A stretch of 64,000 nt of DNA from Ruminococcus sp. (GTDB lineage Bacteria; Bacillota; Clostridia; Oscillospirales; Ruminococcaceae), in contig JAISGY010000044.1 in the NCBI GenBank assembly GCA_031262835.1, forward strand, positions 1 to 64,000. Reading direction: 5' to 3'. Under the pieces are notes generated by a model. The model did not search any database. It had not been told where the DNA came from and saw only the letters and a list, made by a program, of their open reading frames with translations. This document shows positions 55,849-60,276 of the stretch, piece after piece (position 1 is the stretch's first letter; each line of letters begins with the position of its first letter). A program made the translations under genes and the position numbers.

Positions 55849-56796
55849 TTATCTTCTGCCAAAGATTTTCTCTTTGGTTAAAACAGCATCTTTTGAATAT
55901 ATGAGGGAGAGGGAGGTGTCGTCACGGTTTCCGTACTCGGATATTTCGGGAAGCATCTTGTCAAGAACACGCTTTCCCTTAAATTTCCCCTGTGAAATAA
56001 TAATCCGCGTGAGCTGTTCAAAAATCTTGCATAGGTCTTTTTTATCGCGATAAGCTTCAGAAACACCATCCGTACATAAAAATACCGCCGTCGGCAGGAT
56101 TTCCGAATAGTAATGCCTGAATTCATCTGCCGCGTCCGAGTCACAGATTGAGGTTGTCGCATTCAGAAAACAATTTTCGTCCCACGGTACGGGCTCGGAA
56201 AAATCTCCGTCCGCACTTTGCGCAAAAATCCGCCCGTCGCCGATTTGAATCCCGAACCAGTATTTTTCGGTAACCGCCGCAAGAAGGAGAGTGCTTCCGT
56301 AAACGCTGTAGATGTAGTCGTCAAAGCCCCAGTCAGACGGCAGTTTAGCTATTTCGTCGTCTCTGTAAGGGTGCGCGCCGAAATCTTCGTAAACTTCGTC
56401 GCCCCATCTTGAAATTATGCATTTTTCGAGCTGTGAGAGCTGTCTCTGTATATCTTCCGCATTTTTAAGAAGATTATTTCCGGCATTTTTGATGAATTCC
56501 TCCGCCGCCATAATCCCGATTGTTACGGCGAGTTCCGCGCCGCGCCCGCTGCGAAAATAGGGCTCCGCACCATGCCCGTCGGCAACCGCCGCAATAACGT
56601 AACCGCTTTTATGAAGGCACGCCGAATAATCCTGACACGGAAGACCATGACGAAGATGAGAAAGACCGATTGATGTTCCGTTAATACAGTTGTAGATATA
56701 ATCACCAACCCAGAATACAGAGTACAGAGTACAGAATACAGAGCAGAGGGCAGAAACAGTGAAATCTGTATTCTGTATTCTCGCTTCTTTATTCTG
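55849..56796 (-). CDS. PP2C-type protein phosphatase; open frame extends from the VWA stop codon but has no ATG/GTG/TTG before the ATG at 56511
   Basis: Upstream translation …VGDYIYNCINGTSIGLSHLRHGLPCQDYSACLHKSGYVIAAVADGHGAEPYFRSGRGAELAVTIGI-MAAEEF…; FLCTDGVSEAY; GNRDDTSLSLI. Confidence 0.8.
   Translation of the reverse strand, partial: QNKEARIQNTDFTVSALCSVFCTLYSVFWVGDYIYNCINGTSIGLSHLRHGLPCQDYSACLHKSGYVIAAVADGHGAEPYFRSGRGAELAVTIGIMAAEEFIKNAGNNLLKNAEDIQRQLSQLEKCIISRWGDEVYEDFGAHPYRDDEIAKLPSDWGFDDYIYSVYGSTLLLAAVTEKYWFGIQIGDGRIFAQSADGDFSEPVPWDENCFLNATTSICDSDAADEFRHYYSEILPTAVFLCTDGVSEAYRDKKDLCKIFEQLTRIIISQGKFKGKRVLDKMLPEISEYGNRDDTSLSLIYSKDAVLTKEKIFGRR
56711..56796. repeat. 86-nt fold-back element: two 32-nt arms of degenerate 7-nt repeats (CAGAATA/CAGAGTA; TCTGTAT) around a 22-nt loop
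   Basis: Left arm 56711-56742 and reverse complement of right arm 56765-56796 match at 26/32 positions by hand count. Confidence 0.9.
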
Positions 56797-57537
56797 TTAA
56801 TCCCATTCGTCGTCGGACACAACAGCGTCGCCGCGCATCTCTTCGACAGCGGTTTTGAGTTCGTATAAGAATTCTTCCTGCTTTGTCGGTTTTAAACCGT
56901 TGTCGGAAACAGCGGCGGCGGAACGGCTTGCAACCTGACTGCTTCGCACCGACACAAATTTTATCATCTTTTTAAGAAGCTCACTGTTTGTTGCCTTAAC
57001 GACGGAGTTTTCATTCCCGGTAAATTTTCTTAAAACCTCTTCGTTAGCGTCGTCCCCGACAGCAAGAGCAACCTTAATTGCGTGGACAAACCACTTGTTT
57101 TCGGAAAGCTCTTCGAGGGGTTTTTGCCACTCGTCGGTGGGTTCGCCGTCGGTCATGAGGAATATTACCGGGGCGTATGAGCCGGCGGCTTCCTGCATGA
57201 AGGCGGATTTTGAAAGCTTCTCGCGAAGTTCGGTGAATGCCGCGCCGAGGTCTGTTACACCCATTGCTTCGATAGGTTCCCATCTGAAAACGTCTGCGGA
57301 AACGGGTCCGTCAGGGGTTACCCACTTTATGCCGTTTGAAAATTCCATCGCCGCAATCTTTATTTCGGCGTCGGGGTTCGCCTCCGACATCTTTTTAAGG
57401 TCGGGAATAATCTCCTCGATAGCGTTGTTGACCGAACCGATTTTAGTTCCGAACATTGAACCGCTTGTATCTATAAGGAAGAATAAAACCATGGTTTTAC
57501 GGGGTACGGGTGCGCTTGTTAAAATACTTTCCGGCAT
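56797..57537 (-). CDS. TerY-like VWA domain protein
   Basis: MIDAS VLFFLIDTSGSMFGTKIGSVNNAIEEIIPDL; FLMTDGEPTDEWQKPLEEL. Confidence 0.9.
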   Translation of the reverse strand: MPESILTSAPVPRKTMVLFFLIDTSGSMFGTKIGSVNNAIEEIIPDLKKMSEANPDAEIKIAAMEFSNGIKWVTPDGPVSADVFRWEPIEAMGVTDLGAAFTELREKLSKSAFMQEAAGSYAPVIFLMTDGEPTDEWQKPLEELSENKWFVHAIKVALAVGDDANEEVLRKFTGNENSVVKATNSELLKKMIKFVSVRSSQVASRSAAAVSDNGLKPTKQEEFLYELKTAVEEMRGDAVVSDDEWD

Positions 57538-57584: not shown

Positions 57585-58886
57585 CTAATCCTCCGAGTTG
57601 TCGATAAATTCGCCGTCTGTTTCGGGGAAAGTTATCGTAACGCCTGTGCGGATTCTTGTTACCTCATTATTTCCGCGGACGGTTTCAAAGCCGTCTGTGT
57701 CAATAACAAGCCACGAATCGTCCGTGAGATTGCGGAGCCCCCAGATATTCGGGTTCTTTGCCCCTTTTGTAACAATACCCACGCGCTTCTTGTCGTCACC
57801 CGTTTCGGCAATTTCATGCTCGTATATGACTTTTCCGGGATAAAGCGGGATATTCGCATAACGCGTTTTAAGGGTTATCGGGAGTGAAAGCGGCGTACCG
57901 CAGTTAATACAGCGGTTTGAAGCACAGGCAGGGTCATAGAAAGTCTCATATCCGCAGCCGCCGCAGGGGATTATCATCGTCTTAACCGACCTGTAGATAA
58001 GCTGCCACTCTTTTTCAAGAAGACGCGGCTTTTCGTTCTTCATTACGGCGTAAGAAAACGCATAACCAAACGCCTCGCGAAGCGCGTCGGGCAGAATCGG
58101 GAAACGCTGTATGACATTAACGTGAACCCCGCGCACAGGGCGGTTAGAGTCGTCCGACTTGTCGAAGATGAATATCGGGTTTTCGGCGAAAATCTTCTGC
58201 TCAAGTTCCTCGGTCATACAGGGCGGCATCGCTGCTTTTCCCTCGAGCGGGTGGTTCATGTATGTTAAAAGAAAAAGTATAACCGAGAGGGAATATTTAT
58301 CGGTCTGGACATCGGGGAGCTTCTGCCCCATTACAACTTCCGGTGCCATGTACCGACATTTCCCCGCGATACCTAAGTTTTCACCGTACGGGGCAATATT
58401 GTCGTTGTCGCAGATTAAGACTTCGCCGGAATCGGGGTTGATGAAAAAGTTGCCGTCGTTTATATCTTGGTAAGAATAGCCTTTTTTATGGAGCTCGCGG
58501 AAACCTGTTATTATTTCGAGCGCACTGTCAATCATTGCCGTGAGGGAAGAAAACCTCGTTTTTGCAAGCAGATACGATGAGAAGCTTTTATATGCGGGCG
58601 GAATTATCGGCATGATATAGCCGAAAACGCCGTTATAGTCGTTCGTTATATCGACCGGCCAGAGAAAACGCTTGTCGGGTGCGCCGGAAGCGACATTCTG
58701 TTTAAGGTTATCGAGGAAGGCTGTCGGGTTTTTATGTATGTTTTTGTGATACCACTTAAGTGCCATAACCTTCCCGCAGTATTCGCAGTTATAGACTGTC
58801 CCTTGCCCGCCTTCGCCGATCTTTGATATTACCGTTGCAGTTTTATTGTTAATGGTGGTTAATACCCTTCCTGCCGCAAGTTCCAT
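57585..58886 (-). CDS. Protein kinase-like protein with zinc ribbon and FHA-like C-terminus
   Basis: KIGEGGQGTVYNCEYCGKVMALKWY; YSYQDINDGNFFINPDSGEVLICDNDNI; APEVV; CGGCGYET…CINCG; C-terminal PNIWGLRNLTDDSWLV. Confidence 0.85.
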   Translation of the reverse strand: MELAAGRVLTTINNKTATVISKIGEGGQGTVYNCEYCGKVMALKWYHKNIHKNPTAFLDNLKQNVASGAPDKRFLWPVDITNDYNGVFGYIMPIIPPAYKSFSSYLLAKTRFSSLTAMIDSALEIITGFRELHKKGYSYQDINDGNFFINPDSGEVLICDNDNIAPYGENLGIAGKCRYMAPEVVMGQKLPDVQTDKYSLSVILFLLTYMNHPLEGKAAMPPCMTEELEQKIFAENPIFIFDKSDDSNRPVRGVHVNVIQRFPILPDALREAFGYAFSYAVMKNEKPRLLEKEWQLIYRSVKTMIIPCGGCGYETFYDPACASNRCINCGTPLSLPITLKTRYANIPLYPGKVIYEHEIAETGDDKKRVGIVTKGAKNPNIWGLRNLTDDSWLVIDTDGFETVRGNNEVTRIRTGVTITFPETDGEFIDNSED

Positions 58887-58894
58887 ATTTGCTC

Positions 58895-60247
58895 CTAATC
58901 GATCTTAATGTTTACCGGGGTTTGCCTGTTAATATCCGTCTTGTCGCCGAGCTGGTACGATTCGTTTAAGCCCCACGCGTAAAGCTTCCCGTCAGTCTTT
59001 TTGCAGAGTGAGTATCGCACCCCGGCGGCAGTATCTTCCGCATCGTCCATAATTTTAACCGGGAATTTTCGGTTAACGTCGGTGCCGTCGCCGAGCTGTC
59101 CGTAGAAGTTTTTCCCCCATGCCCAAAGCGAACCGTCCGTCTTAACCGCGAGGGAGTGAAGCTCACCCGCCGCCGCGCTCTTTACGTCCGACATAAACAT
59201 GACCGGGCGGGTAATTACCGCTTCGGAAGAAAAGGAAGCGGAATCGTTTTCGATATCGGGGATAAGCCCCCATGTCCAGAGCGTTCTGTCAGATTTTACC
59301 GCGATGGAATGGTAGGTTCCGGCGGCGGCGAAAAGCACGTCATTCATTATGAATACAGGGGTCTTGCGGGTTTGGCGCGAACCGTCCCCAAGCTGTCCGA
59401 AGCGGTTTTCACCCCAAGCCCAAAGCGTTCCGTCCGATTTTACCGCAAGGGAATGAAGCATCCCCGCAGACACGCTTACCGTGTCCGACATGATTATCTC
59501 CATGCCGCTTTTAAGCGTACGAATGTTGCAAAGACTTCCGTCAAAACGTATCGCATAGGAATGCATCCGCCCGCCGCAGTCGATAAAAGCAACGCCGCGC
59601 ATTATCGGAACAGGGTTAAAACATTCCTCCGCCGCGTCGGGTCCGAGACCCCCGAAGCGGTTTTCACCGAAGCCGTAAAGCGTTCCGTCGAATTTCAGCG
59701 CGAGGGAGTGACTCCAGCCCATCGAAACCGACTTAACCCCGGACATTATCTCGGTAGGCTGTCTCACAGGGGCATCGTCGCCGACACCGGTGCTGCCGAA
59801 CTCGTTTAACCCCCACGTGAAAAGCTTGCCTGTCGGGGTAACGAATGCCGATTGCGAGAACTTCCCGGAAAGGGTGTTGTCAAACCGCTTAGGGCTTCCT
59901 GCCGTGACGGTTTTTATTATCTTAATCTGAGGCGAGGTTATGTCAATATCATAAGCGTATGCAAGAAGCTCATAGAATGTGTCGGCGGTTTGAATGTCAA
60001 TATCGCCGCTTTCGGTGAATCCCGCCAGTATCTGACGGAGCTCGGTTCTGTCGGCGGTTGAAGCCTTGACAAGTGCTTCGCCTTTACATAAAATCCGCAT
60101 TGCCGCGCGTAAATTTCGCATTTTCGGACACAAATCGTCAAAAGCGGCAAGCAGCCTGCCGCCGTCGTAAAAAATATCGCCGCCGAATCTGTCGCGTATG
60201 TAAGAAAAACACTCGAGCGGGTCGGTAAAAAACTTCGATTTAACCAT
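58895..60247 (-). CDS. RCC1-repeat beta-propeller protein with about 110-aa helical N-terminal domain
   Basis: Repeats such as [81 protein letters not shown]. Confidence 0.92.
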
Positions 60248-60276
60248 AATACTCACAAAGCGCAAATATATAAAAC

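Follow-up and report, generated by a model that had tools for sequence, protein, structure and literature searches.

There are few documented start codons outside the canonical set, because genes that carry them are shortened or missed by gene callers. Among the described cases, the closest to the locus reported here are the Staphylococcus aureus genes cvfC1 (AUU) and ccpN (AUA), in which an extended Shine-Dalgarno (SD) sequence guides the start and expression in reporters is about 10% of that from AUG, although in rich medium ccpN can reach 30% (PMC13009471). The infC gene starts with ATT in E. coli and with ATC in Streptomyces (cited in PMC5472188), and in Streptomyces a GTC start on sigR allows IF3 to keep the level of SigR under that of its partner RsrA (PMC5472188). 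At the level of gene content, the relevant system is the TerY-P triad, which comprises a VWA protein, a PP2C phosphatase and a kinase with a zinc ribbon (PMC11090510, PMC4978471).

In this report, we describe a PP2C-type Ser/Thr phosphatase gene of the gut bacterium Ruminococcus sp. from a 64,000-nucleotide stretch of DNA, which in its whole length is called the window; the best reading of its sequence is that it adds a new instance to the known kind of non-canonical start represented by infC, cvfC1, ccpN and sigR. As in cvfC1 and ccpN, we propose for a Firmicute gene a conserved AUH start with an extended SD close to it, whereas the gene is a different one, the codon is AUC or AUU and the evidence is comparative. 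In the same genus, infC itself has an AUA codon with a strong SD; however, infC is autoregulated by its own product, and PP2C would only be a target. With sigR, the gene would share the principle that a regulatory protein is kept substoichiometric to an operon partner by means of a non-canonical start, although the codon there is GTC and the effect was demonstrated experimentally for sigR and is proposed for PP2C.

Results

The phosphatase gene lies on the minus strand, where its frame runs without interruption from 56796, immediately behind the TAA (56799-56797) of the upstream VWA gene, to a stop at 55849. The original prediction, that this frame contains no ATG, GTG or TTG before 56511 and that 56511 is beyond the catalytic motifs, was confirmed: the earliest such codon is the ATG at 56511-56509, past GLSHLRHGLPCQD and VADGHG, and the conserved CQD and ADGHG motifs precede it. 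The PP2C domain of P0001 (PF13672, E 6.6e-35) spans residues 43-270, and because it begins at residue 43, these motifs would be lost if 56511 were used; a caller limited to ATG, GTG and TTG would nevertheless pick this codon, at the cost of the catalytic motif. The metal-binding aspartates are present, with D40 G41 H42 G43, D210 G211 and D259 D260 invariant in alignment A2. The near-cognate codons in frame before 56511 are ATA 56778, CTG 56727, ATC 56697, ATT 56685 and ATC 56670, with a few more after them. Our candidate is the ATC at 56697-56695 (I34 of P0001), which would give a gene extending over 55849-56697 on the minus strand and a product of 282 aa with the predicted N-terminal peptide (M)YNCINGTSIGLSHLR, in which the ATG at 56511-56509 encodes an internal methionine, residue 63.

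The four other members of the small genus that were compared all carry the gene, at 89, 81, 72 and 50% identity; the 89, 81 and 72% identical set represents the sister species G004, G002 and G001, and the titled sister genomes are all MAGs from one sample series (Hm464). In the gene alignment of four species, the codon at the candidate position is ATC in the source genome (G000), ATT in G004, ATT in G002 and ATC in G001. No in-frame ATG, GTG or TTG occurs before the motifs in G000 or G004. G002 and G001 likewise lack ATG and GTG in frame ahead of the motifs and have one TTG each, located at codon -24 in G002 (SD energy -2.4) and at codon -8 in G001 (-4.9, 13 nt away); the two TTG codons are in different places, unconserved and without a usable SD, and a canonical start at the upstream TTG is, strictly speaking, still conceivable in these two species.

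To a wider circle of relatives, 299 genomes of the family, we applied a profile search and inspected the codon aligned with 56697-56695 at 30 loci, of which 29 were usable (L084 matched only from profile position 54). ATG, GTG or TTG stands exactly at the aligned position in 18 of the 29 and within a few codons of it in a further eight; the other three, with AUC or AUU, are G000, G004 and G002. The near relative G003 starts with ATG (MINFNSTSIG) at almost the same place, and in an alignment with G003 and with homologues from Treponema, other spirochaetes and Synergistaceae, L054 and L057 have their Met in the start column. The starts of homologues lie at the I34 position or close to it and not at the equivalent of 56511, an outcome that would have spoken against the original prediction.

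Selection and the predicted fold both bear on the segment upstream of 56511. Compared among four species, dN/dS is 0.06-0.13 for codons 1-61 (from the candidate start to just before 56511), which resembles the remainder of the gene, and the changes are mostly at third positions. In an AlphaFold2 model of the 282-aa protein (pLDDT 83.9, pTM 0.87), the first element is a strand at residues 3-9, and the fold has matches among PP2C structures in the PDB; by sequence, no solved structure matched the protein. In this model, a start at 56511 would remove the first three predicted strands together with the DGHG motif. The ATG at 56511 was rejected as the true start, because selection reaches upstream of it and the fold would lose strands. 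The purifying selection on codons 1-61 and the PP2C fold of the model indicate that the gene is functional; judged from the strong purifying selection upstream of 56511 and from the lack of a well-placed canonical start in three sister species as well, it is neither broken nor an assembly error.

The candidate codon is preceded by an extended SD, TGGGTTGGTGATTA (56699-56712, minus strand), with the core GGTGAT at 56706-56701. Over the 20 bases before the codon, the pairing energies are -12.5 (G000), -11.0 (G004), -11.1 (G002) and -12.9 kcal/mol (G001), calculated with an assumed Firmicutes 16S tail as the anti-SD; the 16S 3' end was not found in these assemblies. The motif varies among the four species (GGTGAT, GGTGGT, GTGTGAT and GGGGTGAT), its strength is kept despite this change, and all four share an aligned spacing of 6, which lies within the range of window ORFs that have good sites. 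Of 6,000 random 20-mers from the window, 0.5% are as strong as -12.5 and 2.3% as strong as -10; the 61 window ORFs that begin with ATG and are 150 aa or longer, some of which are not genes, have a median of -6.1. Neighbouring in-frame near-cognates are mostly weak or poorly spaced for SD pairing; a far-upstream ATA in G004 also reaches -10.4. The G003 orthologue (L035 / L047:1314) has the opposite arrangement to the sister species, with an ATG start and an SD that is practically absent (-0.1 kcal/mol). Local RNA folding predicted for G000 and G001 leaves the strong SD region (56698-56717) mostly paired (mean unpaired probability 0.12), and on these models such pairing is a possible further layer of control.

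Non-AUG initiation had been among the options of the original prediction, and the conserved AUC/AUU codon with its strong SD supports this option and allows the codon to be named. We regard it as highly probable that the gene is intact and starts at the AUC at 56697-56695, read by fMet-tRNA through the strong extended SD. Weighing against this reading are the upstream TTG codons of G001 and G002, the -10.4 of the ATA in G004, the assumed 16S tail, the predicted pairing of the SD, the origin of the titled sister genomes in a single sample series and the ATG without an SD in G003. Initiation at a different near-cognate or at a TTG is unlikely. The ATT at 56685, four codons downstream, recurs at codon +4 in three species, but this codon is GTC in G001 and the spacer is 13 nt; the CTG at 56727, inside a repeat element, has an SD of only -0.8; and the TTG codons of G001 and G002, with their weak SDs, are missing in G000 and G004. 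Another route into the frame would be an out-of-frame GTG overlapping GGTGAT, followed by a programmed -1 frameshift. This GTG is found at -8 in all four species and opens a frame of about 60-71 codons, but it belongs to the SD core, has only a weak SD of its own in three of the four and yields a product that is not domain-like, and inspection by eye showed no slippery heptamer; we give this route very little credence, and it was rejected on account of its position inside the SD core and the lack of a visible slippery site.

Between the VWA stop and PP2C lies a heptad inverted-repeat element (56711-56796, minus strand), an imperfect hairpin (z -2.2) of TCTGTAY units (TCTGTAT and TCTGTAC). The element has 196 overlapping matches in G000; copies are plentiful there and in G003 and sparse in G004 and G002, whereas the G001 genome has zero matches and the search of other genomes from the family and order found none. 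The repeat is thus genus-specific, and it is a bystander at the PP2C start. The gap between the two genes measures 36-144 nt among the species and its sequence is unconserved; in G001 it is only 36 nt, with the same start architecture. G001 supplies the element-free orthologous operon proposed for comparison, and the ATG is missing there too. Inactivation of the gene by the element, another of the earlier options, is refuted by this repeat-free genome, which has the same start, and by the dN/dS of 0.06-0.13 upstream of 56511. More generally, a pseudogene, or a start lost through repeat insertion or assembly error, might be considered because the element adjoins the gene and the source is a draft MAG, but four separately assembled species agree, one of them without a matching repeat, and the catalytic motifs are complete; conservation refutes this reading, and we consider it very improbable.

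The frame continuity between the VWA stop and PP2C, from which a readthrough fusion had been envisaged, is real in the source genome and extends to G004 and G001, but it is accidental and is lost in G002. There, the VWA stop and PP2C are in different frames and a further TAA interrupts the PP2C frame between them, which refutes readthrough of the TAA. The variable gap and the wider-family homologues, which are encoded separately and each have a start of their own, also speak against a VWA-PP2C fusion, and its probability is negligible.

To place the AUC start in its genomic context, we screened 461 kb of the source genome (the window and 20 further stretches, about a quarter of the genome) for near-cognates with a good, well-spaced SD that lie in a coding-like frame, 20 or more codons ahead of its first canonical start. 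With a stricter coding filter, applied first, infC was the sole result; scoring the frame bodies gave two clearly positive cases, the PP2C gene and infC (AUA). The GTC and ATT candidates of the screen were rejected for low coding scores, the ATT lying upstream of a nadD-like gene with its own ATG. As only these two genes were recovered, the genus generally keeps the canonical start rule, and infC serves as an internal positive control. In the source genome, infC (L063, G000:C69:3575-4084) has its AUA behind AGGAGGGG, with no canonical start upstream; the AUA with an AGGAGGG(G) or GGAGGGG site is found in four species of the genus (G000, G001, G002 and G004). An altered initiator tRNA was also considered and rejected: a search for initiator-like anticodon stems found CAU tRNAs only, in G001 and G003, and two GGGCTTATAACCC matches were not tRNAs by ARAGORN.

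Upstream of PP2C on the minus strand are genes for a VWA-domain protein (56797-57537; PF00092, E 3.9e-12), a Ser/Thr protein kinase (57585-58886; PF00069, E 2.5e-14) with a C-terminal CxxC..CxxC zinc-ribbon-like segment, read from cysteines in the translation only, and an RCC1-like repeat protein (58895-60265; PF25390, E 4.3e-67, and PF00415), the first gene of the conserved cluster. Within the reach of their contigs, G004 and G001 have the same order of RCC1-like, kinase, VWA, PP2C and aspartokinase genes, and G003 shows VWA, PP2C and aspartokinase. As in the TerY-P triad, three protein classes share one operon and the kinase has CxxC pairs at its C-terminus; unlike it, the operon has an added RCC1-like gene, and no restriction or tellurite genes were seen beside it. 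The composition fits a TerY-P-like triad, and the TerY membership of the VWA protein is only weakly matched (PADLOC TerY, E 0.0023, 15.5 bits). PP2C homologues 35-41% identical were observed in genomes of Treponema, other spirochaetes and Synergistaceae (L055-L059), with neighbouring kinase and VWA genes at L055 and L057; this operon type is thus common to distant phyla.

Discussion

Our data suggest a model whereby an ancestor carried a canonical codon at the PP2C start position, and this codon would have changed to AUC or AUU on the branch leading to G000, G004, G002 and G001 while the SD was retained. The start-proximal extended SD, UGGGUUGGUGAUUA, would then position the AUC for recognition by fMet-tRNA, so that ribosomes could use this codon. 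By analogy with cvfC1 and ccpN, the yield of PP2C would be low, about a tenth of that from AUG, and IF3 discrimination would cap it at a level substoichiometric to the kinase and the VWA protein. On this analogy, the phosphatase is probably held low by IF3 discrimination, and its output may be responsive to IF3. The combination of a strong SD with an AUC codon, shared only with infC in the screen, suggests that low and controllable production of the phosphatase is deliberate.

If this start is used, a kinase-phosphatase operon would join infC as the site of a conserved non-canonical start, here AUC/AUU, and start-codon control of the kinase/phosphatase ratio would become directly testable. It would also provide a recipe, namely a homologous start position, an AUH codon and an extended SD, that in a quarter of the genome recovered only PP2C and infC. 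We further offer the tentative speculation that the PP2C start acts as a standing sensor of IF3 or ribosome status, with PP2C rising only when start-codon discrimination relaxes and the kinase and VWA protein being made from AUG; were this the case, the state of translation would set the phosphorylation set-point of the TerY-P-like pathway.
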